A stretch of DNA of 59,778 bases from a virus: positions 1 through 59,778 of IMG/VR virus record IMGVR_UViG_3300021197_001267; one strand, given 5' to 3'. The translations under genes were made by a program, and so were the position numbers. Positions within the stretch are counted from its first letter, which is position 1. Each line of letters opens with the position of its first letter. The notes under the pieces were generated by a model, which was given only the letters and a program-made list of their open reading frames with translations, searched no databases and was not told the origin of the DNA. Positions 4,507-56,917 of this stretch are shown piece after piece.

Positions 4507-4761
4507 ATGTCGAAAGACAACAACAACAACTACGTAGGTTACGTAGAACCCCACGTCTCTTTCAAAGTCAAGTTCACCTTGGCCGAGTTGGAGCAGATGA
4601 AGCAGTTTGCCACAGAGAAAGGCAACGTCTACATCAAAGTAAACTGCACCAAGAACAAGGAGCAGAACAACAAAGGCAACGCATGGGCGGTCGTAGAAGA
4701 CCCGAAGTCATGGGCCTCACAGAAGCCAGCTGAAACGTCAGCGGACTCTATGCCGTTCTGA
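4507..4761 (+). CDS. small SSB-like protein with acidic MPF tail (84 aa)
   Basis: An 84-residue protein with a short beta-rich region (HVSFKVKFTLAEL, NVYIKVNCTKNKEQ) and a polar linker ending in ADSMPF. The C-terminal acidic-hydrophobic tip resembles the DDIPF tail by which bacterial SSB proteins recruit partners. Its place straight after an ERF/exonuclease pair suits a single-strand-binding or SSB-mimic role. It is much shorter than a full OB-fold SSB (over 110 residues), so the core fold is uncertain. The start at 4507 follows an ATTCCATAATC leader. Confidence 0.65.
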   Translation: MSKDNNNNYVGYVEPHVSFKVKFTLAELEQMKQFATEKGNVYIKVNCTKNKEQNNKGNAWAVVEDPKSWASQKPAETSADSMPF

Positions 4762-4767
4762 ACCAGA

Positions 4768-4841
4768 GGGGTGGCGCATGGTGTGCAGGGAGAGCCTGCA
4801 ACAAGGCTTATGTATTGAGCCTTAGGAAACAAAGCCACCCC
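4768..4841 (+). ncRNA. candidate three-way-junction structured RNA
   Basis: Three perfect nested helices are visible. P1 pairs GGGGTGGC (4768-4775) with GCCACCCC (4834-4841), 8 bp. P2 pairs TGCAGG (4784-4789) with CCTGCA (4795-4800) around a GAGAG loop. P3 pairs AAGGCT (4803-4808) with AGCCTT (4818-4823) around a 9-nt loop. The junction strand 4824-4833 is purine-rich (AGGAAACAAA). It begins 6 bp after a stop codon and ends 6 bp before the tRNA. No T-arm or anticodon arm fits, so it is not a tRNA. I do not recognise a class. Confidence 0.6.
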
Positions 4842-4847
4842 GTATCT

Positions 4848-4921
4848 GCCCTTGTAGCTCAGTTGGATAGAGCACCCGCCTTCTAAGCGGGCGGTCACAG
4901 GTTCGAATCCTGTCGGGGGTA
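4848..4921 (+). tRNA. tRNA-Arg (anticodon TCT)
   Basis: Full cloverleaf: acceptor 4848-4854 with 4914-4920 (three G-U pairs, the rest Watson-Crick), D arm GCTC/GAGC, anticodon stem CCCGC/GCGGG with loop CTTCTAA (anticodon TCT at 4882-4884), variable loop CGGTC, and T arm ACAGG-TTCGAAT-CCTGT. The discriminator is A4921. CCA is not encoded (CTT follows). It reads AGA codons, which are common in this phage's genes, so it probably supplements the host pool. Confidence 0.95.
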
Positions 4922-5209
4922 CTTCCCATATCTTCTAGCCCTTGCGGGTAAAAGACTCTACCTTGTCGGGTGAGGTGGGATATCCAGTCATGTCTTGTTC
5001 GCTGTCGAAGCTATGTCGGAAGATTTGTTTAAGCGACAACAGACAAATGATTAAATGGGGGCCGCAAGGTTGACGACTCATTACCCTTTATGGATATCAA
5101 AGACTGACAGCTGGAAAGACAGCATCGCTTTTAAGGTAGCATGGTGGCCGCATCTGTGCGTGCGCGTGAGGTGTTCGATTCCCCTCCTCCCTTCCAAAAT
5201 TTAATTCAA
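4922..5209 (+). other. non-coding stretch downstream of the tRNA with several weak secondary structures
   Basis: No convincing gene lies between the tRNA and the ATG at 5210. Visible elements are TCCCA (4924-4928) pairing with TGGGA (4976-4980) around a GCCC-TTGC-GGGT hairpin, and the inverted repeat ATTTGT/ACAAAT around 5023-5047. There is also a T-arm-like GTTCGATTCCCC near 5171-5182 followed by an encoded CCA at 5194-5196. I could not fold this last part into a tRNA. The stretch may be an RNA-processing region or decayed tRNA genes. Confidence 0.4.
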
Positions 5210-13481: not shown

Positions 13482-13941
13482 CGTAATCAATGTATGTGAT
13501 AGTTACTTCCTCACCTTTGTCCAGAGCCTCTGCAATCCTTGGGTACACATCGAAGTAAGCTTGCGTGCTCCTGCCAATAAAGCCATTGCTGCTCTTGACA
13601 TTGGACTCCTGAGTTTCCCCAATGAGAAGGCAACCAGCAGTGTGCTCATCAGTATTCCCACAATGAATAAGTATGTACTCAAAAGAAGGTACGTCAAGAA
13701 CCCAGAGCATGCCTTTGTGAATATCCTGAAAACGATGGGCATACCTGCTGTGAAAGCCGCCCACTGTTCGTAGGCCAACTCGATACGTTCCAGAGGGGAC
13801 ACGAGTTTCGCCATCCACCTTTTCATTTCTTTCCTCATCTTCTAGTGTGTAACACAGGAACTTCCTGCCGTTTGTTGTGTCAAATAAAATGCCTGAGGTC
13901 GAGTCCTCTTGGCTACTGATTCTTAAAACTTCTAGTTTCAT
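13405..13941 (-). CDS. DUF5675-family protein, probable lysis-associated (178 aa)
   Basis: The domain spans residues 1-140: MKLEVLRISSQEDSTSGILF, FLCYTLEDEERN, RVPSGTYRVGLRT, LDVPSFEYILIHCGN and TAGCLLIGE. The H-x-G-N....GC pairing resembles L,D-transpeptidase/carboxypeptidase-like sites, and this family often sits in phage lysis cassettes as a presumed peptidoglycan-active protein. The catalytic role is inferred. The last 35 residues are charged and overlap the holin gene. ATG 13941 overlaps the stop of the giant gene upstream. Confidence 0.72.
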   Translation of the reverse strand: MKLEVLRISSQEDSTSGILFDTTNGRKFLCYTLEDEERNEKVDGETRVPSGTYRVGLRTVGGFHSRYAHRFQDIHKGMLWVLDVPSFEYILIHCGNTDEHTAGCLLIGETQESNVKSSNGFIGRSTQAYFDVYPRIAEALDKGEEVTITYIDYDGEEEKKDKGHKARPVAKDRRTRSS

Positions 13942-16900
13942 TCTGTTAGATTGTAGTACATGCTCTCTTCAAGGGTGCCGCTACGCATGCCTGCCATGTA
14001 GATGTCCGCAAGGTTTTTGAACTCCTTGAACTCATCAGCAGACATAGCATTCTTTCTCTTGTTGATGATAGAGAAGTAATCCTTTGCGTCGCCAGCATTC
14101 ATAAAGATACTTCTGATATCTCTAATATGAGTCGAGTATCCATCCATCTTCCTCAAGCTAATTTCAATAGCCGCATCCTTAGCCCCCTTCTTAAATTTAG
14201 AAGCAGCCTTTTCTGCATCGTATGGTGAGTAGTTAAGTTGCTCTTGAAGGATGCGTTGGAATCCCTCTACCCCTGTATCCTCACCTAGAACTTGCATGAG
14301 TTCTTGGTTGTTGGATAGCATAGCCTTGGAAATCATTTCGTAACCAGCAAGCTCTTCTTCTGAGCGCAATGACCGCTCCCTCGGTAGGTCATCCATGCGG
14401 CGAGCGAGGATGTCAATCTCTTTGGATGAGAACCCAGACATCTGCCCCATCGCAAGCATGAACTTCATGGCAAAGAACATATCCATTTGCTCCTTATCCT
14501 CTGGCCTCACAAAGTATTCTCTGCCTGTAGAAGAGTAGACCTTGTTGCCATCTTCCATTAGGTTCTTCAGGGTGTTCCCTGCGTCGGTGACAAACTCCCC
14601 ATATGGCCCCATGCCCACCTTAAGCAAACCACTTGCAGACAACTCGGGGTTGCTGTTGTATGTGGGTATTGTTGCCGAGGTGTTCTTCCAGCGCTCATAC
14701 CTTTCATCATAACTCTCACCCTCCAAGAATCCTGGCACACCATCCATTCCTTCTGAAAGGGGGAATAGCATGTACTTGTTAGTCATCTCTTTTACCACGT
14801 CCTCCAAATAACCAATAGGAGGGAGTGGATTCATGTCTGCTAACACACTGCCAACGATATCCAACAGCTTACTGTCCTTGTACTTTGACTCCTCTTCATC
14901 GTCCTCTACAAATAGGGATGCGATAGCTGGGATTAAGACCTTACCGATAGCGTGGAATGCAGACAGCTCTGCAAGGTGTCCAGCCATAGCAATCGCACCC
15001 TCCCGTCTTGTCTTAGAGTCATCCCGCCTTCCTCGAAGGTCAAGCTTATTGAAGTCAGAGTAGATGCTTCGCTTCTTGTTTACAGCAAATCTTGCAAAAG
15101 GAAGGACAATGTTTCTGACGAAGTCGACTAAAGGCCCCATGGCCCCAGAGGTATCCTTGTAAATATCTGCTGCTTGGCGTGGCGTAGATGCCGCCTGGTC
15201 CTTAGTTACCATAGAGTCTGCATAGCTAAGCGCATCAAGGTCTGGTCGAGCTGCTTGCTCATCCCAGTTAATGTCGTCAAAGCTATCAGCCAGTCCCTCC
15301 GAGAGGAGGTAGTCTCCATAGAATGTAAACCACGACGCTACGGCAGCCACTTTGTCAGTAGACTTTAGGTTCTGTAGTGATAGGTCTTGAAGTTTGTCTC
15401 TTGTCCTAACAAACCAGCTAGTCTCTGTATCAATAGAACCAGTGTATGGGTCAATGTTTCCCGCTTCATAATCTCTAGAAAAAACTGGGGAGTTCTGAAG
15501 TAGCTTGTACCTTCCGTTTGCTTCAAGGGCAAGCTTAGAGTCAGTGAGCAATCCGTTCCTTAAAGCAAATGCGAAGAGCTCACCTACAGTTTGAATCATA
15601 TACGGGATAGACTGAACGGGATTCTTCGTGTTGGCCATCGTACTGATGAGCACGGTACTTTGCTTGAGTGTCTGAGTAAGTACACCGCCAAAGGCCTTCA
15701 CGATTACGGCGTTCTTAATTGTTTTAATAGGGTTTCTAAAAGTCTTACCCCCATACGTAAACCTAGCCTGAAAAACAGGAGGCGCACTTGCAGAATCTTG
15801 CGTGATGTAGTTCATCAACTTTGTGTGCAGCTGATTCTTTGTGCCGTCATCAGGAATGAGCTTGGCTAACTCCTCGCTTGAGAATACAGATTGAAGAGAC
15901 ATCACCTCACCCACAGTGTTTGATAGAATAGTATTTTCTCTGAGCGTTCGCTCGTTAATACTAGTAAAGTTGAGACCAAGGATATTCCCCGTGCCAGTAA
16001 TGCTCTTTGGGTTTCTCTCAAATGAGGAGCCTGCTGTTTTCTTAGCATTAGAAAGCGAGCTACTACGCATGCTGTCCATAATGGCCTGCCTCATCTGCAA
16101 TCCCTCATCAACAGCTTCGTTCTTTACCTTCACCTTAACGCTGAATGGCGTGTAGTTATTCTCTCTCGTGAGGTTCTTCCCGAGGTATCGCTCAACATAG
16201 TTCGCAAACGAATCTTCAAGCGTAGAGTGTACCCCAGCCATGAAGTCAACCATCTGAACAAGGTCAGGTCTTTCTGTCTGCACCTTGGCCAGTAGGTCTG
16301 GCAGGTTCTTCTCTGAGAACAGATACTCAAACGCTGCCTCCATCTCAGCTAAATCTTTGTCTGAGTAAATTTCACGCTGCTCCCTGTAGTGGTCGATACT
16401 GCGCCGCGTTGCATCTCTTAATGCGAGATACCACTCTGCCTCGTTTTGACCAGGTGCTCCCTCTTCAAGGACGGGCATCTGCCTAGCCATGGAGAACAGC
16501 TGCATAATAGCGTTATCCAATACTGTCTTGACACTCCCGCCCTCACCCTCAATACGGTCTATCTCCTCTGTTATGGCTTCGGCGGTCATGGCGTGAATCA
16601 TATCAGCCTTCGCAAAGGCTCTCTCCATGTCAGCAAATCCAATCAACCTTCGGATTTTTGAAATCGTTTTGTTGTCCGTCTTAAAGACCAACCTCAGGAA
16701 GGAGTCAGCTGTATCGAGTAGGGAAAGGATAGGCCTGCTCCCCGCACTTACACCCTTGTTAGTAAGCTGTTCTTCAATGCCCTTGGCCAACTCGATTCGA
16801 CCTCGCACGCGAGCAGCTAGATAACCCAGCCCCATGACTGAGTCGTTCATCAAGTAATCGTCAAGCTTAAACTCTAGGTTCGCTAGGTGAATCTTGTCAA

Positions 16901-19900
16901 GCTTCATCAGCCTATTGATTAGGTCCGAAGCATTGAATTGGTCAAGGCTATACACACCAAGAATCTCAGCAATATGACTGTCTTCAAGAAGCTTCTCTAG
17001 GTTGAAGGCAATCTGCGGCAGCAAAGCATCTCTTATGATTGCATCCTTAGACTGCTCCTCCAGGAGCGCTTTGTTCTCAGCGAGTTGCTCCAGCACATAC
17101 TCTACGTCAGCAGGGTTAGCGGGGTCAAGAGACAGCTCAGGGTTGTCTTCGATGAAGCTAAGGATAGCTCTCCTGGTGGCGCTAACTTTGCGAAGCTTTG
17201 CCGCCTTAACAAGTGCTTCGTATTCGTTCTCAAAAGAAGTTCCGTTCTTCTCGGCAGCCGCCTTAGCCTTAGCCACCATCACCGCGTTACGTCCTATCTC
17301 TTCGAGGGCTATGAACTTATCGGCAAGAGACATGAGGGCTTCGACTGACCTCCTCGCAGGCACCTGAGCCACTACCCTCTCTTCCTCTTTACTGAATACT
17401 GTCTTCACCTTTGACACAGAACTCACGGCGGAGTTGAGTGTGTTGATGAAGTCCTGTATATCCGTGGGCGACAGCAGAGATGCGTTGATTCCAGACAGTC
17501 TCCTTAGTACCCTGTCGTAGGAAGCAACAGACTTAAGCGCCTCTCCCTTCTTGCGCTTCTTGGCTGCACCTCTTAGTCTCTTTTGGAGCTTGCGTGCCGC
17601 ACTAATAGAAGCCAAGTAGTTTCTCATGGCTTCTTTGGCATCCTGCTTATCGAAGATATCAATCAGCTTCTCAACAAACGTATCCATAACCTCGGCCTCC
17701 CCCTCCTTCTGAATCCTCTTGGCAGAAGACTTGTGTGCTTGCCTAACAATCTTAAGGAGTCTCTGAATGTCCTTGTTGCCAAAGGGCTGCTGACCCCTGC
17801 CCTTCATCCTTTCATCCACAAGCTTGATAGCAAAGGACAAGAACTCCTCTACGGTTTTAGACTTGTTCTTAAGCTGGTCGAGTTCTTTCTTAAGAGCCTT
17901 GGCCTCTGTGCTAAGCTCTCTGTTTCTTTTACCGAGGGTCTCCTGAGCCTCCCTGCTTGCCATCTTTTTTCCTGCAGTTCGCCCCTCCTTGTAAGCCTTG
18001 GCATTGGCATACATCGCCTCTGCGTTTTCTTTGCTCATGCCACTTGCAATAAGTAGCTCCATCACCTCCTTCTTTTTTCTGTTCCATAGCTCGCTTTTAG
18101 AGGGCGTAATAATAAGCTTTCCACGCTTAGTCACACGCGCTCCTGGAGTAGGAGTTGAAGGGTCAACCATGTCGGCTATGAGCTTCATCAAGTTACCCTG
18201 AGCCTTACCTCTATTGATAATTGACTCAGACTTGTCCATCGCCAAAACGTCTCTAGTGATAGTGTCAATAGGGACGGGTGTCTTAACAGTCATCCTACCC
18301 CACGTAGCCTGACCCATCCCCCCCATCATTTCAAAGGCGTTAGGAGTTATGAGTTTGCGCTCCCCCTTGCTGTTGGTGTACATGTCACCTATCTCTAGAC
18401 CACGGTTTACTGGGTTGGTACCCCTGGTAACAAGCGTGCCAGGAGCAGAGCGCATAGCCTTAAAGACAATAGTCTTTGGTGTCGGAGCGTTGGGGTCTAC
18501 ATTGACTAGCTTAAGTGGGTATGAGGCTGTTGGGTTGGGGTCTTTCTCAAGCCTAACCTCAGATGAAACCTCGATAGCACCATATATATTATTAACCTCC
18601 CCCCCCTGAAGAATCTTCTCTTGAAAGAAGTCATAGAAAAAGTTCTTAAGAGTAGAACCAAATTGACTTGCCTTAGGTCTAAACCCAAAGATTCTTTCGT
18701 AGGATTCTATGAGTCTTTTCTTTTCTGCAGCACTGTCCTTGGACTTTACAGCTACTGCCTTCCCCAGGTTTGTTGCAAACTTATCTACAAACTCACGTCT
18801 CTGCTCGAACGTAGACCTATATGGGGATGCGAACTCTACGAAGAAACGCTCGAACAAATCCTCCATTTTGCCAGCCATAGAGCTGAGCTTATTTGTCCCC
18901 TTCTTGAGTGGGTTTGGCTCCTTGCCATCCTTTACCCTAGCCTCGTTTCTTTTTATCTGAGTAGTAATAGACAGTCTCTCAGTCTCGGCGACAGTATCCT
19001 TGAGCACCTTCTTGAGCTCCGTCTTGGTCAGTACATTCTGATTGACAAGCTCAAAGCCAAGGGAAGCCATAGACATCACACCATTGGTGGAGCTTTTGTG
19101 CTTCTCCCTTCCCCCGCTGATGAGTAGGAGGTAGGCCTTGCCGTCGGGTGAAGTCTTGAGCAGTTCATTAAGTTCATTGGCCATGTTGTTACCAGCGCTC
19201 TCGCCAGCCACAGCCCACACGTCACCTGTATTGGCAGAATAGAACAGCCCGCCTCCATTATTCACCAGCACTCTGTCGTCAACAGACACCGAGCCAACCA
19301 TCATGTTGTCTGGTGAGTGCGAGAGGACAGGTCTTCCCTCCAATATAGACATATCTTCTTGACGGACCACCCCCGACTTGAGCCAGTCCTCCATCTGTGT
19401 GGTGCTTGCTGCGTAGTTCAGGTCAAAGATTCCAATCTTCTGTGGCTTAACCAAAGACACTGGGTCTCCAACAAGAGCGCCTGGGCGCTGGAACTTAATC
19501 TTCTGTCCACTCACCCTACTCTTAGCCTCAAAGCGAGGGTCAGACGCAGAGACTTTAACAGCATCCTTGGCGAGCACAAGCGCTCCCACTTGAATAATCT
19601 CAGAGGCCTCAGCTAGTGGTCGGCCATCACGCTTGTCATAGAACCAGCTGTGGCGGAACGGATTCATCCCCACCTGTACCCATCCCTCCATCTTGCCCAG
19701 CTCCTTGTAGTCAGAGTTGTACTCGCTACCCTTCATGATGTCGACAGCACGCTGTCTCACCTGCTCGGGTGACTCGTTCTTGAAGTCACCAAACATTCTC
19801 GCAATAGTCTGCTTGCCCTTACCCCTTGCAATGTTGAGGGCGGCCATTGGCGTGGAGTCAAAGGTCGCGTTCGTAATCACCGCTGTCTGTCCATACCCTA

Positions 19901-22900
19901 CAGCCTTGCCGCCAAGGAACGGTGCCCTTGCTTCAGCTCTCTTGCCTTGGTGCACTGAGACAACCCACGTGTCGTAGGTGTCGTATGCTGGGATGTCTAG
20001 TCTCAACCCAACGTAGTACCCGTCAGCAATCTCTTTGTTAACTCCAATGATACCCTTGGCTACCTTGTCAGAGGTTAGCGCCGATGCCACGTCCATTACT
20101 GTTGGGACCTCAGGCACTTCTTCAAAAGGCTTGATAGGCATGTTCTCCCGAACAGCTGACACATAATCCTCTTGAGTAATTTCTCCGAGCTCGTACTTAT
20201 TAAGGACATTGAGCACTACAGAGTTACGTGTTTGTCTTTGAGACTCGGGCAACTTCATCTCCGCTCTACGTTCCTCCATCTGCTGAGCATTGATACCTGC
20301 AGCCTGCTCAAAAGAAACCTCTGCGTTTTCTGATAGCGAGAGGTCGGGCAGGGCTTGAGCCTTAGGCTTTCTTGCTCTTGCTGCCGTGGCATCGTATGCC
20401 ACCATGTAGTCATCAAACCTTTGACCCTCTCCTTTGGCGCCTTCACCTTTGACAAAGAACACTACATCTGGCTCGTCGAGCAACGGTGAGTTCTCTGCAT
20501 CCCAACCATCTGGTGCAAACTCCCTGTTAAATGCTGTGCGTGCATAGGGTTTGTACCCCAACCCAATGTAGATATCCTCTAGCTTGGTGGCAAAAGCATC
20601 GAAGAAAATCTCAACACCGTTCTCTGCAGCCCATGCTTCCATGCGCTTGAACAAAGGTTTTGTAATCCGCTTAAATCTTGTGTCTGGATTCTTGAAGATG
20701 CCACCTACGTAACCGTCCTTGGTGATGTATCCACCAGCACCGTAGTCTGCTGTCATGAAGATTTCCCCTCCGTCGTCGATGATTTGTTGTACATCGGATT
20801 CTGAAAGCTGAGTCACTTGCAAACCAATGTTAATGCCACGCTCCTCCATCATCTTCATCGCTCGGTCCATAGACCTGGCAAAATAGTTTACCCCCTGAGG
20901 GTCAGAGGCCGTGATGATGTCTCTGTCTGCTGCGTCTGCTGTTGGTCTGATAGGCTCTGACTTCTGCCTTGTCGCCTCTCCGCTATACTCACCCTCGTGC
21001 ACGTAAGTTTCCTCATACGTCCACCCTCTCTCCCGCTCCATGAACTTGATGAAGTTGTTGAGGTGACGCTCGTTCTTGAATACCCTCTTCACTGGGTGCT
21101 TGGCCTTACCACTAAGGCTTACGCTGAACACGACGGTTGCAAATATCTCCCCGCCCTCTGCCTCCATAGCCTGCGCCTTGGCTTCGTCGAAGCCATCCTC
21201 TGCTTCGTCATCCATCATAACTCCAGCACGCATAGCAATGCCTGCATAGTTGGCTCGGATAACAGCTTCGTTCAGCTTTCTCTGTCCCTCAAGCCTACGA
21301 CCTTCAGAGAACTCTTGAGTCATCTGTTGGATGGCGGACACGACGTTGTCAATCTTTGCGTCAGGAATACCCTTGACTCCAATGCGTCCTAGGTGTGGGG
21401 CGAGGAACTCCATGAACTGCCTGACCACACTCTTCTGGATGTCGATAGATACGTTGCCTGCGGTGATGTCAGCAAGAAGTTCTGTAAGGAACTCGTCAGC
21501 AACCTGCACCTTGTCCTGTTCTGTCAGAGATTTGTCATCAAGTGAGGACGTGAGGTTGCCTCGGCCGTCTCCGTAACTTGTTAAGAACTGTGAATACCTC
21601 TTAGCCAGGTTGTCAGGCAGAGCCTGGAACAACTTCTTCGCCAACCCAACAGCAGCCTTGGTCCCGATGGTCTGCAGCACGAAGTCATGATACCCCTCGT
21701 GATATGCTGTTGTCTCAAGCAAGCCTGGCAAGAACATCTTAATCTGACCCGACCCAGTCCACATCCCACGTCCCGCAGCCTCGATAGCCTCCTCCCTCGT
21801 GAGGCCAGCATCCTGCATGAGGTCTTCGATGTAAGTATCGTAGTCTCGATACATGTCAACAGCCACGTCACCCAAAGAGGACAAGCCCTTGACTACGTTA
21901 ACAGCGTTTTGCATGCCCCTCACGATGCGTTCGCCAGTAGTTACTGCCTTGGTCTTACCCTCTCCATCCACAACGGTGTGGGGTGAGACATCGTACTTGG
22001 TCAATCCTTGAATGATTTGAGCAATAGGACCTAGGTTGTCTGCCGTTACAGTAACCTTGCCCCTTCCCTCTGCAAACAGTCCGCCATAGTTGCGTCTCTT
22101 CTTGCCAGCTTTCCGTCCCTCTCTAGCCAAGATGCGGGACTCAAGCTTACCGTCTGTCTGAAGCATAGAGTCCATCTCTCCCTCAATGTTACCGCGCTCG
22201 GCCATAAGCTCCCGAACCTCCTTGGTAATCTTTCGTCTTGTATCAGAGTCCGCACGCGTGTACTGTTCTGCAAGAACCTCCGCTCTATTGTGGATATCCA
22301 CGAGTCTTTGGTAAGTCTCTGGCTTAGTCTCTGCCAGATACTCCATAACCTGTTGTCTTCTATCCGACAGCTTGGTGTAGGCATCGACAGCGTCAATAAT
22401 CCTGCGGCCAATCGTGGCTCTTTCTCTTTTAGATTCTGCCTGAGAGAATTGACCCTTAAGCTCTTCAATCTTAGCCATGGTTCTGATTAACCCAAGACTT
22501 TTGCTCGCAACGGTCCTGGCCACTGTACCTGCAGGTGAAAGCGTCCCACCCATAGCAATACCTGCCAGCGCTCCTTCTTTTGTCTGAGCCCAGAAGTCAT
22601 CATACTTCCACTCTACCGCCTCGCCACCAGCACGCATGGCGTTAATTCTAGATGTGTACTGCCACCCTGCAGTAACCCCCTCAGTAATCCCCTCTTCAAC
22701 AGCGCCAAGGCCAGCGCCCATAAGAAGGCCTGTTGTCCAGCTCTTTAAGGTTTGCTCACCAGCATCGGTCATTAAAGACTTGATGATGGCACCTCCAACA
22801 CTTTTACCAGCAAAAATCTGTGCTCCCACTGCGGCAGGAAGACCTTCTGCGATACCGCTACTCGTTACAAACCCAAGCTTCTGTGCGTCATTTAAGTTTT

Positions 22901-24182
22901 GAAACCATTCGGTGTCTCTGTTCTCCGAGTAGACTGAAGCACCACCGAGTATAGATGTGACAGAACCTACGGCTCGGGGGTTGCCTCTTGATACAGCACC
23001 TGTAACCATAGCGGCGCCCATTAGGGGAAGGGATGCACCAAGCATGCCTAGGCCGTCACTCATGAATCCTGGAATGTCAAGGTCAAGGAGCTTTTCCTCA
23101 AGGCCTTTGCTGGAAACAGCCATATCCTTACCAATATCCCTGATGCTCTGCTGCCGTGCAGCCTGGTCTTCATCATTGCCGCCAAGAGCGTTCTCTACTG
23201 GAGTTGCAATACCATCCCACATCCTCAATGTTGCCTGCCTAAATCCAGGGGCGAAAACATCTGTTACTCCAAGCCATCCCTGACCCGACTCGTTGACGTA
23301 ACCCTCCCCCGTTAGGTCCGTAGAGATATCATAATTTCTGTATAGATTCTGCTCGATAGACCTACGCTCATCAAGAGAAAGGTCCCTACCCATTTGTGAT
23401 TTGAACTTAGCGCTTGCGGTAGGCTCAATCTGTTGGTTGATGTAGGAGAAAGCTTCGTTTCCAGCCCGCTCCTTTTCCATCCTTACAACCTCGTCTTTGA
23501 ATTGACGGGCTTGACCCTCATAATCTAGGCTCTCGTCTACCTCAAAGTTGGGCGCAAAAAATCCTCTGTCTCTTCCAGAATACAAACGACCAGCGTCAAA
23601 TCCCTTAAGTGATTCGTAATCGTTTTGAGGAGTATCATTAAATCCTTTTGATAGCTCAATGTAACCCTCGTTTACGTCGTCATTCATCAAAGAGCCAATA
23701 CCATCAATGACAGATTGGCGCTCTAACTCTAGCTGTTCTGAGGAAAGACTATCTAGTCTAGATGCGTCAGCCTGCATACCGCTAGACTGATAGTACTTAG
23801 ACAGGTCAAAGTTTTGATTGATGTAATCCATCCGTTCAGACTCGTAAGCCTGCCCGTAATTGTACACCAACTGCGCATCAGCCCCAGGGATTTGCTGTCC
23901 CCCGAAGTCATACGTCTGGTATGGGTCAAATGTTACTGGCGTAGAAGCCGAAGCTCCACTGTCGTCCTCGTCCTGCTGAGCTGGAGTCGCCAACCCTGAA
24001 GAAGAATCCGTAAAATCCACCTCCGAAACTGGCTCCAAGGCTGAAGTTTCGTCTTTTTTTTTTGGGTCCTCGACTGGCTGTGCCGCTTGGTACCCATCAA
24101 TCATTGCTTGCAGCTCGGCTTTTGAGGCGCCAGCCTCTGCAGCCGCGTAGTAGCGTGCAAGGAACTGCTCTTTTGTCTCCAT
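13938..24182 (-). CDS. giant polyvalent virion protein with zincin motif (3414 aa)
   Basis: One uninterrupted 10.2-kb gene. Residues 1-110 are Asp/Ser/Gln-rich; about 370-570 are hydrophobic, Ala/Gly-rich helices (GMLGASLPLMGAAMVTGAVS). At 828-832 a HEGYH motif follows TTAY, a zincin-type site. Residues about 1120-1230 contain GGYITKDGYVGGIF and IFFDAFATKLEDIYIGLGY, GNAT-like in outline. Near 1505-1540, NPFRHSWFYDKRDGRPLAEA and VGALVLAKDAV match large-polyvalent-protein-associated domains. Long coiled and basic helical stretches follow. Such proteins are packaged and probably ejected with the DNA to protect it or to help entry; that role is known for the class, not shown here. It accounts for about 17% of the genome. 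Confidence 0.85.
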   Translation of the reverse strand: METKEQFLARYYAAAEAGASKAELQAMIDGYQAAQPVEDPKKKDETSALEPVSEVDFTDSSSGLATPAQQDEDDSGASASTPVTFDPYQTYDFGGQQIPGADAQLVYNYGQAYESERMDYINQNFDLSKYYQSSGMQADASRLDSLSSEQLELERQSVIDGIGSLMNDDVNEGYIELSKGFNDTPQNDYESLKGFDAGRLYSGRDRGFFAPNFEVDESLDYEGQARQFKDEVVRMEKERAGNEAFSYINQQIEPTASAKFKSQMGRDLSLDERRSIEQNLYRNYDISTDLTGEGYVNESGQGWLGVTDVFAPGFRQATLRMWDGIATPVENALGGNDEDQAARQQSIRDIGKDMAVSSKGLEEKLLDLDIPGFMSDGLGMLGASLPLMGAAMVTGAVSRGNPRAVGSVTSILGGASVYSENRDTEWFQNLNDAQKLGFVTSSGIAEGLPAAVGAQIFAGKSVGGAIIKSLMTDAGEQTLKSWTTGLLMGAGLGAVEEGITEGVTAGWQYTSRINAMRAGGEAVEWKYDDFWAQTKEGALAGIAMGGTLSPAGTVARTVASKSLGLIRTMAKIEELKGQFSQAESKRERATIGRRIIDAVDAYTKLSDRRQQVMEYLAETKPETYQRLVDIHNRAEVLAEQYTRADSDTRRKITKEVRELMAERGNIEGEMDSMLQTDGKLESRILAREGRKAGKKRRNYGGLFAEGRGKVTVTADNLGPIAQIIQGLTKYDVSPHTVVDGEGKTKAVTTGERIVRGMQNAVNVVKGLSSLGDVAVDMYRDYDTYIEDLMQDAGLTREEAIEAAGRGMWTGSGQIKMFLPGLLETTAYHEGYHDFVLQTIGTKAAVGLAKKLFQALPDNLAKRYSQFLTSYGDGRGNLTSSLDDKSLTEQDKVQVADEFLTELLADITAGNVSIDIQKSVVRQFMEFLAPHLGRIGVKGIPDAKIDNVVSAIQQMTQEFSEGRRLEGQRKLNEAVIRANYAGIAMRAGVMMDDEAEDGFDEAKAQAMEAEGGEIFATVVFSVSLSGKAKHPVKRVFKNERHLNNFIKFMERERGWTYEETYVHEGEYSGEATRQKSEPIRPTADAADRDIITASDPQGVNYFARSMDRAMKMMEERGINIGLQVTQLSESDVQQIIDDGGEIFMTADYGAGGYITKDGYVGGIFKNPDTRFKRITKPLFKRMEAWAAENGVEIFFDAFATKLEDIYIGLGYKPYARTAFNREFAPDGWDAENSPLLDEPDVVFFVKGEGAKGEGQRFDDYMVAYDATAARARKPKAQALPDLSLSENAEVSFEQAAGINAQQMEERRAEMKLPESQRQTRNSVVLNVLNKYELGEITQEDYVSAVRENMPIKPFEEVPEVPTVMDVASALTSDKVAKGIIGVNKEIADGYYVGLRLDIPAYDTYDTWVVSVHQGKRAEARAPFLGGKAVGYGQTAVITNATFDSTPMAALNIARGKGKQTIARMFGDFKNESPEQVRQRAVDIMKGSEYNSDYKELGKMEGWVQVGMNPFRHSWFYDKRDGRPLAEASEIIQVGALVLAKDAVKVSASDPRFEAKSRVSGQKIKFQRPGALVGDPVSLVKPQKIGIFDLNYAASTTQMEDWLKSGVVRQEDMSILEGRPVLSHSPDNMMVGSVSVDDRVLVNNGGGLFYSANTGDVWAVAGESAGNNMANELNELLKTSPDGKAYLLLISGGREKHKSSTNGVMSMASLGFELVNQNVLTKTELKKVLKDTVAETERLSITTQIKRNEARVKDGKEPNPLKKGTNKLSSMAGKMEDLFERFFVEFASPYRSTFEQRREFVDKFATNLGKAVAVKSKDSAAEKKRLIESYERIFGFRPKASQFGSTLKNFFYDFFQEKILQGGEVNNIYGAIEVSSEVRLEKDPNPTASYPLKLVNVDPNAPTPKTIVFKAMRSAPGTLVTRGTNPVNRGLEIGDMYTNSKGERKLITPNAFEMMGGMGQATWGRMTVKTPVPIDTITRDVLAMDKSESIINRGKAQGNLMKLIADMVDPSTPTPGARVTKRGKLIITPSKSELWNRKKKEVMELLIASGMSKENAEAMYANAKAYKEGRTAGKKMASREAQETLGKRNRELSTEAKALKKELDQLKNKSKTVEEFLSFAIKLVDERMKGRGQQPFGNKDIQRLLKIVRQAHKSSAKRIQKEGEAEVMDTFVEKLIDIFDKQDAKEAMRNYLASISAARKLQKRLRGAAKKRKKGEALKSVASYDRVLRRLSGINASLLSPTDIQDFINTLNSAVSSVSKVKTVFSKEEERVVAQVPARRSVEALMSLADKFIALEEIGRNAVMVAKAKAAAEKNGTSFENEYEALVKAAKLRKVSATRRAILSFIEDNPELSLDPANPADVEYVLEQLAENKALLEEQSKDAIIRDALLPQIAFNLEKLLEDSHIAEILGVYSLDQFNASDLINRLMKLDKIHLANLEFKLDDYLMNDSVMGLGYLAARVRGRIELAKGIEEQLTNKGVSAGSRPILSLLDTADSFLRLVFKTDNKTISKIRRLIGFADMERAFAKADMIHAMTAEAITEEIDRIEGEGGSVKTVLDNAIMQLFSMARQMPVLEEGAPGQNEAEWYLALRDATRRSIDHYREQREIYSDKDLAEMEAAFEYLFSEKNLPDLLAKVQTERPDLVQMVDFMAGVHSTLEDSFANYVERYLGKNLTRENNYTPFSVKVKVKNEAVDEGLQMRQAIMDSMRSSSLSNAKKTAGSSFERNPKSITGTGNILGLNFTSINERTLRENTILSNTVGEVMSLQSVFSSEELAKLIPDDGTKNQLHTKLMNYITQDSASAPPVFQARFTYGGKTFRNPIKTIKNAVIVKAFGGVLTQTLKQSTVLISTMANTKNPVQSIPYMIQTVGELFAFALRNGLLTDSKLALEANGRYKLLQNSPVFSRDYEAGNIDPYTGSIDTETSWFVRTRDKLQDLSLQNLKSTDKVAAVASWFTFYGDYLLSEGLADSFDDINWDEQAARPDLDALSYADSMVTKDQAASTPRQAADIYKDTSGAMGPLVDFVRNIVLPFARFAVNKKRSIYSDFNKLDLRGRRDDSKTRREGAIAMAGHLAELSAFHAIGKVLIPAIASLFVEDDEEESKYKDSKLLDIVGSVLADMNPLPPIGYLEDVVKEMTNKYMLFPLSEGMDGVPGFLEGESYDERYERWKNTSATIPTYNSNPELSASGLLKVGMGPYGEFVTDAGNTLKNLMEDGNKVYSSTGREYFVRPEDKEQMDMFFAMKFMLAMGQMSGFSSKEIDILARRMDDLPRERSLRSEEELAGYEMISKAMLSNNQELMQVLGEDTGVEGFQRILQEQLNYSPYDAEKAASKFKKGAKDAAIEISLRKMDGYSTHIRDIRSIFMNAGDAKDYFSIINKRKNAMSADEFKEFKNLADIYMAGMRSGTLEESMYYNLTE

Positions 24183-35366: not shown

Positions 35367-35393
35367 AAAAGGGGGAGAGCGATTCCCTCCCCC
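35367..35393 (-). terminator. rho-independent terminator after the major capsid gene
   Basis: GGGGGAG (35371-35377) and CTCCCCC (35387-35393) form a 7-bp stem with a 9-nt loop; on the minus strand it is followed by TTTT. It lies 19 bp after the capsid stop codon. Confidence 0.85.
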
Positions 35394-35411: not shown

Positions 35412-36836
35412 TTACTGCTTAATCAAAACGTGCTGGTTTGCAGCGCGAGTAATCAAGTTGCACTCAGAGCGGTAGTTGAACTGAGCAGCGTCCTTAGAGT
35501 CCGTGTTGAACCCGAGAACACCACCACCAGTTACCCAGTGCTCCATCTCACGGCTGTAGCCGTTAGCTGCCTTGTAGTTCATCTCCAGGGCAGGAGCTCT
35601 GTTACCAGTCTTAGCATCGACCACATTGGCCAAAGGAATCATTGCTCCCGCAAAGCCCTGACCATCCAACAAGGTTGGGTCGTTCAACAACTTCCAGTTG
35701 TGCTTGTGGAAGGTGTAGCCTCCACGAGAGAACGACTTGAAGCCGAGGTTGACGGCCATGTCCTTATCGTTGTTGAATGCACCGTAGCTAACGCTCAGTC
35801 CAGCTGCTGTGGAAGAAGTCCCGCCAGAAGCAATCATATCGTCCAACTTGAGCATCTGAGCCGTGTTGCAGTACATAGCGTACTCAGCAGGGGCTCCTTG
35901 CTTATCAAGAAGGGTGACGATATCATCCAAGTCACTGAACGAGTTTGCGTTGGTACCGATGAGGTCAGTAGTAACGATACCTCTGTCTTCGACAGCAGCA
36001 AAGTATCCTTCTGTTCCGTCGACGCCAGCAGAGGCGTTGGTAGCCTTCTGACCCAACAACAAAGTCATCTCACGCTTATCCATAAAGCGCTGACGAGTGT
36101 CTTGCTCGCCCTTGATGTACCATCTGTAGTCTCCTCCTCCGAGGTCAATGTAGCCAATGTTTGTGGCTTGAGAACCAGTAACCTTAAAGGTTTCCTTTAC
36201 GATTGCGTAAGGGTTAGTTCTCTTGACAACGTTAGATTCGAGGTAGCGGTCGGGCTGGTCTGTTCCCTGAGCAAACATGTTGCCGATGATAGGGAGAGAG
36301 ATACCAGTATCCGAAGCCGCTGTTCTAGCTGCGGCTGCACCGCCACTAGCCAAGCACTCGATAGACAAAGATGCCGCGCCAGTCGTGGCGTCAATGGTTG
36401 GGTCTGCGTCAACAATCCAGCGAGCGCCATCGAGGAGAAGGATGTCTCCCTTTCTAGCAATCAGCTGTTGGTTGCCGCTACCGTCCTCATCGTATCCACT
36501 GCCACCAATGGCGTGCATAGCGTCCAAAGAAGCAGACGTGTCACCAACGGCAATGTCTGCTGCGACGTCGCATAGCTGTCTCTGGTGGAGGCGAGCCTCT
36601 TCCCAGTATGTTACCTCATCCGCTGTTCCAGCGTTGTTTACAGCACCAGTAAGGCTAAGGAAGCCTGTGATGCCTTGGTCGCCAAAAGTCTTGACGAGGC
36701 TTGCGCGAATGTCAGGTGCGTTGACCTGCTTAATAAAATCCTCAAGTGCTGTGTACTTTGAGGGGTCGAGCTGGTTGTAAGCGGAGTTAAAAATCCCCTT
36801 AGGTCCAGCATCTTGAGTTGGAGTAGTCCAAGCCAT
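35412..36836 (-). CDS. major capsid protein (474 aa)
   Basis: Assigned from position (straight after a scaffold-like gene, ending in a strong terminator) and sequence. A helical N-terminus (ALEDFIKQVNAPDIRASLVK) is followed by a Gly/Ala/Ser-rich middle. The end has GYSREMEHWVTGGGVLGFNT, then DAAQFNYRSECNLITRAANQ and HVLIKQ, which resembles capsid proteins of Bacteroidota phages with the HK97 fold. An open antisense frame of 479 codons (35136-36575, plus strand) overlies it and is a codon-bias shadow. Starts at ATG 36836 after a T-rich leader. Confidence 0.82.
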   Translation of the reverse strand: MAWTTPTQDAGPKGIFNSAYNQLDPSKYTALEDFIKQVNAPDIRASLVKTFGDQGITGFLSLTGAVNNAGTADEVTYWEEARLHQRQLCDVAADIAVGDTSASLDAMHAIGGSGYDEDGSGNQQLIARKGDILLLDGARWIVDADPTIDATTGAASLSIECLASGGAAAARTAASDTGISLPIIGNMFAQGTDQPDRYLESNVVKRTNPYAIVKETFKVTGSQATNIGYIDLGGGDYRWYIKGEQDTRQRFMDKREMTLLLGQKATNASAGVDGTEGYFAAVEDRGIVTTDLIGTNANSFSDLDDIVTLLDKQGAPAEYAMYCNTAQMLKLDDMIASGGTSSTAAGLSVSYGAFNNDKDMAVNLGFKSFSRGGYTFHKHNWKLLNDPTLLDGQGFAGAMIPLANVVDAKTGNRAPALEMNYKAANGYSREMEHWVTGGGVLGFNTDSKDAAQFNYRSECNLITRAANQHVLIKQ

Positions 36837-55834: not shown

Positions 55835-56104
55835 TCATTTGGTGCAACCCCATTTCGCATTAGAGTAGCTGATGAACTTCTTAAACGTTATGCTGCTACA
55901 CGTAAGGTGAAGGTTGTTCTGTTGCTTGTTGATACGAGCCTTGCTCTTGAAGATATCCTTTATGAGCTTCTCCCTGAAATACTCGTTCCGCCATATAAGG
56001 TTCTTGTCATTGCCAACAAGGATAGCATCGTACAGCTTGTACTCCTTCTTCGACTTGCTGTCAAACAAGACGACGTCACACATGTGGATGGGTTCTTTAG
56101 TCAT
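55835..56104 (-). CDS. hypothetical protein (89 aa)
   Basis: Starts MTKEPIHMCDVVLFDSKSKK and has EYKLYDAILVGNDKNLIWRN, FREKLIKDIFKSKARINKQQ: basic and helical. Overlaps the upstream stop (TAA 56097-56099). No family recognised. Confidence 0.62.
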   Translation of the reverse strand: MTKEPIHMCDVVLFDSKSKKEYKLYDAILVGNDKNLIWRNEYFREKLIKDIFKSKARINKQQNNLHLTCSSITFKKFISYSNAKWGCTK

Positions 56105-56258
56105 ACTCCTCTAACGAAGGAGGTGGCAGCTTATTGCTCAGCTTATCTAGAGCCCTGGCCATAGCCCTCCTCCTTCCACGCGCTGTGTGCTGCCCCCTAG
56201 TGTTATTAGTGGCTTCTTGCAACAGCTGAATCATCTCGTCTGTTAATTGCATGTGCAT
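56097..56258 (-). CDS. first gene of the late operon, basic hypothetical (53 aa)
   Basis: Starts MHMQLTDEMIQLLQEATNNT; the centre is RGQHTARGRRRAMARALDKL, a strongly basic helix. ATG 56258 was chosen; a second in-frame ATG at 56252 is possible. First gene behind the late promoter and leader RNA. Could be nucleic-acid-binding; function unknown. Confidence 0.65.
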   Translation of the reverse strand: MHMQLTDEMIQLLQEATNNTRGQHTARGRRRAMARALDKLSNKLPPPSLEEYD

Positions 56259-56282
56259 AGCTGTCCCTTGATACTTTTTTAA

Positions 56283-56367
56283 GAGAGGACCCTAAGCTGC
56301 CTGTATCTCACAAACAGTCTGACCGAGGTGAGGACCCATCAGGTCCGTAACCTCAAGACGTCCTCTC
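56283..56367 (-). ncRNA. candidate structured leader RNA of the late operon
   Basis: Read on the minus strand: an 8-bp closing stem GAGAGGAC (56367-56360) with GTCCTCTC (56290-56283). Inside is a two-part hairpin, GAGGT/ACCTC plus GGACC/GGTCC (56354-56325), and a smaller CTGT/ACAG hairpin (56317-56301) with a 9-nt loop. It lies between the late promoter and the first late ATG at 56258. Three-way-junction layout, like the RNA near the tRNA but without sequence homology except a shared CTTAGG. Confidence 0.6.
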
Positions 56368-56371
56368 AAGG

Positions 56372-56408
56372 ATGTAGCGAAGGTACTACATTTTTTTTTC
56401 AAAGTCAA
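56372..56408 (-). promoter_or_regulatory. late-arm promoter with operator-like dyad
   Basis: On the minus strand TTG (56408-56406) then 20 bp then TACCTTCG (56385-56378), a good match to the Bacteroidota TTTG-N19-21-TAnnTTTG promoter with one T to C change in the -7 box. The -7 box is exactly the 8-bp spacer of a perfect dyad, ATGTAG/CTACAT (56391-56386 and 56377-56372). A repressor bound there would block the promoter. Confidence 0.65.
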
Positions 56409-56917
56409 GTAGGGTGGGTAACACCATAACCCAGCGCGGAATTATCTTTCGAGATACATATAGTGTAATACCATAGATAGAAAGGTGACAGATAGAAGAG
56501 CATAACACATATCGAGGCTGATAATAATTATGCGAAGGTATGTGAAAATAGGCCAGACATACGCACCTAGGGGATTATACATATACAGCAGTAGCACCGA
56601 TGTCAATCGGAAACGGAATCCTGAACCCCAGCCCCTCGACGTTTTCCCCTTTGGGAATCCAGTTTTGGCATTTGACTTTTGGCTCTCCCCAGTCCAAGCA
56701 AGACAGACCAAGATGGACCACAGGAGATGAGACACACAGACCACAGGCACAATCCCTTCCCCAATCGTTCATGCTCCATGGGGGAACCCACACATGGGAC
56801 ATTGTGGTGCGTTAACTTTTGTTTGCATATAGGTCCATACTAAATCGAAGACGAGACTCGTATAGGTATCAGAAGGCGGGAGCTGATTCCTAGCCACAAA
56901 CCCTTAACTCACTGATA
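56409..56917. other. non-coding divergent control region
   Basis: No convincing gene lies here. Short open frames on both strands (such as 56600-56815 plus and 56603-56791 minus) overlap one another and have no leader. I see inverted repeats TGGGT/ACCCA (56415/56433), TATCT-TTCG-AGATA (56443-56456) and CCGAT-GTCA-ATCGG (56597-56610), and a direct repeat GACCACAGG (56716 and 56739). There is also a second TACCTTCG word on the minus strand (56540-56533) without a -33 box. This region could contain the replication origin. Confidence 0.5.
56818..56848 (+). promoter_or_regulatory. weak candidate promoter for the plus-strand arm
   Basis: TTTG (56818-56821) then 19 bp then TAAATCGA (56841-56848). 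The -33 box and spacing fit, but the -7 box matches TAnnTTTG poorly. It lies 69 bp upstream of the first early ATG at 56918. Confidence 0.3.

Follow-up and report, generated by a model that had tools for sequence, protein, structure and literature searches.

The EAR element of Bacillus eps operons is a cis-acting RNA positioned early in a long operon; it is conserved by covariation and acts on elongation. The putL element of phage HK022 is an RNA of about 70 nt whose two stem-loops, close behind a phage promoter, bring about protein-independent antitermination; a sigma-dependent pause has been proposed to help put RNA fold (PMC9378689). A pause sequence in the leader before a long operon also characterizes ops/JUMPstart with RfaH and the systems of other NusG paralogs, such as the LoaP-dfn leader, and in the lambda N-nut system a leader hairpin with a 5-nt loop is followed by the gene for a small arginine-rich protein. 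To our knowledge, late-transcription control in Bacteroidota phages is hardly known, and we know of no antitermination RNA from such phages.

We analyzed the leader at the head of the late operon in a 59.8-kb virus record (the window, here the whole stretch of 59,778 nt). Judged by its gene content, the phage most likely infects Bacteroidota, because its TerL and portal correspond to phrog_6681 and phrog_6547, it encodes a crAss-type muzzle C-terminal domain together with a type IX secretion domain (CHU_C), and Flavobacterium, Cellulophaga, Maribacter, and Tenacibaculum are hosts of isolates whose TerL is related. A single late block of minus-strand genes runs from ~56.26 kb down to ~13.4 kb; the late operon is roughly 42 kb long. 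It includes a gene for a 3414-aa protein (13938-24182, minus strand) without Pfam or PHROG match; with zero such matches, a role as virion RNA polymerase was rejected for it. A search for a phage-encoded T7-type RNA polymerase gave no match and was uninformative, since the control also matched nowhere.

The late promoter (56378-56408, minus strand) comprises TTGACTTTG at 56408-56400, an A-rich 14-bp spacer, and the -7 box TACCTTCG at 56385-56378. It fits the Bacteroidota sigma-A consensus TTTG/TAnnTTTG (PMC7366714, PMC9723704), and in relatives TTGACTTT and TAnCTTYGC also precede the leaders. Because the sigma-A -7 box of Flavobacterium psychrophilum spans -12 to -5 (PMC9723704), transcription is predicted to start at an A at about 56373 on the minus strand; most leaders have a purine after a pyrimidine at the corresponding position. 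Farther upstream, at a distance of ~155 bp from this promoter, a conserved block (56486-56640, minus strand) carries a second -7-like box, again TACCTTCG (56533-56540, minus strand), with the counterparts TAGCTTTGC and TAACTTTGC in relatives. This block may act as a second late promoter or as a site for an activator.

The original prediction placed a structured RNA between this promoter and the first late gene, with an 8-bp closing helix around a two-part hairpin and a second hairpin. All these elements are present in the sequence and coincide with the minimum free energy fold of the 85-nt stretch at 56283-56367 (minus strand). The closing helix P1 pairs GAGAGGAC (56367-56360) with GUCCUCUC (56290-56283), and most of its pairs have a probability of ~1 in the window. 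The distances given for it are also right, as P1 starts ~10 nt downstream of the -7 box and its 3′ arm ends 24 nt before ATG 56258. Within P1 lies the P2 hairpin (56359-56317), built from P2a (56359-56356/56320-56317), P2b (GAGGU/ACCUC, 56354-56350/56329-56325), and P2c (GGACC/GGUCC, 56346-56342/56336-56332) with the 5-nt loop UGAUG. P2a is weakly predicted in the window (pair probability ~0.08) but is kept in relatives. The P3 hairpin (56317-56297) is strong in the single-sequence fold and is found in the window only. The 85-nt stretch folds at -37.2 kcal/mol (z -2.9), and 1 of 200 dinucleotide shuffles folds equally well. In longer contexts the z-score weakens to -1.4 and -2.16, so fold energy alone is not decisive, and several leaders have fold energies no better than those of shuffles. 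The covariation described below is the stronger evidence for structure.

TerL relatives were fetched from IMG/VR and further ones added by pattern scans, yielding five distinct homologous leaders: those of the window, L007 (to which L087 is near-identical), L003, L008, and L088. With helix arms set by hand, helix-wise alignment of the five gives paired positions in 30/30 cells for the inner part of an outer helix (P0b), 24/25 for P1, 22/25 for P2a, 24/25 for P2b, and 24/24 for P2c. Compensatory changes occur at 9 of 26 base-pair positions across P1 and the three P2 helices. Those in P1 are A-U/C-G and A-U/U-A, and within P2 there is one in P2a, four in P2b, and two in P2c. RNAalifold on a MAFFT alignment of the close relatives detects 10 double-changed pairs. 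The P2c loop reads UUGGG in three of the five, on different stems, and the same loop is kept on differing stems in L003, L008, L088, L124, and L127. No conserved counterpart of P3 or of the 3′ part of the junction is found in relatives. The outer helix, P0, pairs CCUUGA (56371-56366) with UCAAGG (56271-56266); its pair probability is ~0.5 in the window, and it is present in all five of these leaders, one of its pairs varying between C-G and U-G. Related phages thus retain P1 and P2 with compensatory changes, so the outcome that would have refuted the prediction, relatives devoid of conserved helices, did not materialize. The leader is a real, evolutionarily conserved structured RNA that separates the late promoter from the first late gene, as had been proposed. 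The conserved element is longer than first described, reaching from ~56373 to 56255 and adding both P0 and the 3′ motif GGGACAGCTATGC.

This 3′ motif (56255-56267, minus strand; consensus GGGnnAGCTGTGC) recurs well beyond the close relatives. In a promoter scan of all fetched loci, other groups show TTGACTTT...TAnCTTYGC followed by a leader of 85-165 nt; in the L016 group, two hairpins covary at the same place (21 pairs, 10 with double changes). At least 22 distinct forms of the leader occur within a single large family of uncultivated phages, and the leader is apparently undescribed. A GGnnnnnnnT[G/A]Y[G/A]-like end, of which the window copy is GGGACAGCTATG at 56267-56256, closes 22 of 22 leaders.

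The elemental-pause consensus reads G-11G-10...T-3G-2Y-1G+1. When the leaders are aligned in this register, G-10 is present in 21/22. All 22 have T-3, Y-1, and a purine at +1, three features demanded by the search pattern, which no leader failed; position -2 is T in two leaders and +1 is G in only 14/22. The pause consensus is short and degenerate. The end-element pattern occurs in 20-21 of 22 leaders versus 11-16% of random 130-nt pieces from the same contigs. The inner GC of the L016 group is shifted by one base toward GG, but an additional pyrimidine after it leaves the spacing from GG to the pause position unchanged. At the level of sequence, the element fits the elemental-pause consensus, with its spacing kept across groups, and pauses of the consensus type affect diverse RNA polymerases (PMC6336406).

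By the strict pattern, the promoter-leader-end arrangement is found at 9 of the 10 TerL loci that hold the full 10 kb upstream and at 16 of 35 when 5 kb or more of upstream sequence is accepted; truncation or divergence may explain the remaining loci. In Elemo phages (39% TerL identity) there is no leader, the promoter running almost straight into an ATG, and the matches of genome contigs to a promoter-plus-TTGAG pattern were rejected, as they do not show the leader. Named isolates gave no DNA match to the leader, with phage blastn returning only 26-base chance matches, and Rfam searches stayed below the gathering score for every family, the weak matches at E 2-5 being meaningless. A promoter followed by 85-165 nt and GGGnnAGCTGTGC can serve as a search signature for late operons in metagenomic phages.

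The two ends of the leader region also match each other. The GCNNN just after the -7 box is complementary to NNNGC in the end element in a group-specific manner (GCTAT/ATAGC, GCATC/GATGC, GCTTT/AAAGC, GCTGT/ACAGC, and GCAAT/ATTGC). Variable arm pairs are formed in 53 of 66 cases versus 31.6 expected (permutation p < 1/20000) and, among the 15 interior-distinct leaders only, in 37 of 45 versus 22.1 expected, neither figure being corrected for phylogeny. In the window itself (56378-56374 and 56264-56260, minus strand) the match is weak, with only T-A next to GC. For the inner complementarity, P0b, which is surely transcribed, the permutation p is < 1/3000 over the 15 interior-distinct leaders, likewise uncorrected for phylogeny.

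The first late gene (56097-56258, minus strand; ATG 56258 or 56252) encodes an arginine-rich basic protein of 51-53 aa with the core GQHTARGRRRAMARALDKL. The core GQHTARGRRRAM.RALDKL is kept in five close relatives; the protein has no Pfam or PHROG match above cut-off, and no relative of it was found outside the close group. The phage collection contains no relative of gene 55835-56104. Between groups the first gene is unrelated and the promoter, leader, and end element persist: elsewhere the first position is taken by a 43-aa acidic protein (L016), by genes with signal-peptide-like starts, or by a further promoter, and unrelated small basic proteins head the operon in L042 and L066. The operon is thus more likely the selected target than gene 1. 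Some 21 kb downstream, a strong terminator-like hairpin (35371-35393, minus strand) lies inside the late operon directly after a virion structural gene. This gene (35412-36836) matches phrog_13704 (head and packaging) and is probably the capsid gene. Equivalent hairpins with changed but still paired stems occupy the same place in L156 (7578) and L158 (8436). Rather than an obstacle that the polymerase has to overcome, the hairpin may be meant to stop part of the transcription after the capsid gene.

These observations can be set against the known systems. Like put, which comprises putL and putR, the leader is a structured phage RNA directly behind a promoter and is associated with a promoter-proximal pause signal, in the leader a putative one (PMC9378689). 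Unlike put, it heads a late rather than an early operon behind a Bacteroidota-type promoter, measures ~110-150 nt with an enclosing terminal helix, and carries its pause-like element at the 3′ end instead of a -10-like element. Two stem-loops are clearest in the L016 group, whereas the window's group conserves only P2 and the enclosing P1. No sequence kinship with put was detected at the Rfam gathering score, at E up to 5, or by phage blastn.

The conserved elemental-pause-like sequence, in register in all the leaders, is a feature expected of an ops/RfaH-type loading site. The ops sequence GGCGGTAGCGTG resembles GGGATAGCTGTG of the leader, a likeness useful as a lead only. In contrast to ops, the leader element has one extra base and a different context, P0 encloses the structure, and no NusG paralog (PF02357) is encoded in the 13 family records searched, including the window; the host may encode one. 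Compared with N-nut, the arginine-rich protein is limited to one group, the leader hairpin is a bent three-part stem, and boxA is not conserved; a boxA in the leader 5′ arm was rejected, as boxA-like letters occur in two of the five relatives only (L003 and L008). The EAR element differs in host phylum, size, and architecture, and the leader has no Rfam match. No known antiterminator was found. We describe the leader as one that may work like put, ops, or nut without being one of them, since each fails at least one of the features tested.

The original prediction offered antitermination, attenuation, or translation control as functions. No hairpin plus U-tract or other terminator-like site is present on the minus strand at 56250-56380, so attenuation by a leader terminator is not supported. 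Translation control of the first gene is disfavored, and an operon-level function such as antitermination is the best supported of the three, because that gene changes between groups while the leader stays. A folded RNA with a pause-like end, indifferent to gene 1 and followed by a terminator downstream, suggests processive antitermination. We put at roughly 0.42 the probability that the leader acts in cis on transcription elongation throughout the late operon, in a manner comparable to put or ops. In such a mechanism, a host-type RNA polymerase would start at ~56373, the nascent RNA would fold into the P0/P1-P2 domain, and the polymerase would pause at GGGACAGCTATG. The folded RNA could then modify the polymerase, either by itself like the put RNA of HK022 or together with a host or phage factor loaded during the pause, as at ops/JUMPstart. 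The modified polymerase would read through terminators in the ~42-kb operon, such as that at 35393-35371. Points against this reading are the degenerate pause consensus, the unremarkable fold energies of several leaders, the negative searches for a NusG paralog and a known antiterminator, and the chance that the mid-operon hairpin is a partial terminator in its own right. Pausing in vitro and read-through of the mid-operon hairpin offer a direct handle and a simple assay. A doubtful extension is that the leaders form an undescribed, widespread class of RNA antiterminators in Bacteroidota phages, in which a clade-specific fold is combined with one universal programmed-pause end and the promoter discriminator co-evolves by complementarity with the pause site, making the start and the leader end a single switch.

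The main rival to antitermination, in our view rather unlikely, is that P0/P1 sequesters the late mRNA's 5′ end, blocks 5′-end-dependent decay, and so yields a longer-lived transcript. In many leaders P0 does join nucleotides near the predicted 5′ terminus to those at the leader end, with the inner complementarity given above, and a stabilizer would accommodate both a leader interior that varies freely between groups and the independence from the first gene. It leaves unexplained why the end element is conserved in sequence beyond the helix and at constant spacing; P0 is only about half-formed in the window ensemble, and P2, conserved in detail with its mostly fixed UUGGG loop, would be superfluous. 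The complementarity of the GCNNN arm raises a separate difficulty. This arm (-5 to -1) should be untranscribed if +1 lies at 56373, and the antitermination model does not explain it. A role of the inverted arms at the DNA level, as half-sites of an operator or as a signal for recombination or packaging, with RNA structure secondary, would account for the excess of arm pairs in supposedly untranscribed sequence. This reading is nonetheless very improbable, as the hairpins between the arms covary as RNA, only 3-5 bp extend beyond the fixed GC, and the spacing of 84-154 bp shows no obvious phasing to the turns of the DNA helix.

Two further alternatives tie the leader to its first gene. The end element might be a Shine-Dalgarno sequence and start (AAGGGACAGCT-ATG) sequestered by P0, possibly for ribosomes lacking bS21. 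About half of the leaders have AAGGG/GAGGA 5-7 nt before ATG or GTG, a small basic ORF begins exactly there in L042 and L066, and the window's ATG 56258 shares its reading frame with ATG 56252. In many leaders the would-be start is ATA, TTA, or GTA, in others an immediate stop follows it, and the first gene can sit well downstream besides varying between groups. Bacteroidia ribosomes generally ignore Shine-Dalgarno sequences, although initiation that depends on them and senses bS21 exists in Flavobacterium (PMC9976891), and we regard this explanation as unlikely. Autogenous or N-like control, in which the arginine-rich 51-aa product of gene 1 would bind P2 and either repress its own translation or load onto RNA polymerase in the manner of lambda N at boxB, also appears quite unlikely. 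It draws on the conserved arginine-rich core of the small protein in the five close relatives, on P2c as a 4-5-bp stem with a 5-nt loop, and on the boxA-resembling starts of L003 and L008 (TGCTCTTGAG/CGCTCTTGAG). Such letters are missing in the window, L007, and L088, no relative of the protein was found outside the close group even though the leader and end element persist there, and basicity is unspecific, given the unrelated basic proteins of L042 and L066.

The leader had also been likened to an RNA at 4768 on account of a shared CTTAGG and P3 geometry. At the CTTAGG site of the leader (56296-56291), relatives read CCTCAAG, ACAAAAC, AACTAAAG, and TACCAAG. As neither CTTAGG nor P3 is conserved among them, the likeness is, on comparison of the sequences, most likely due to chance; kinship was rejected also because the 4768 RNA has conserved joining strands of its own (GCATGGTG and GGAAACAAAGCC). 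That RNA (4768-4845, plus strand) lies between the ORF at 4507-4761 and tRNA-Arg(TCT) at 4848-4922 and has zero Rfam matches up to E 5. Three relatives conserve it, their hairpins showing changes on both strands of a stem (GCAGG/CCTGC to GTAGG/CCTAC), and it looks like a separate, real structured RNA.
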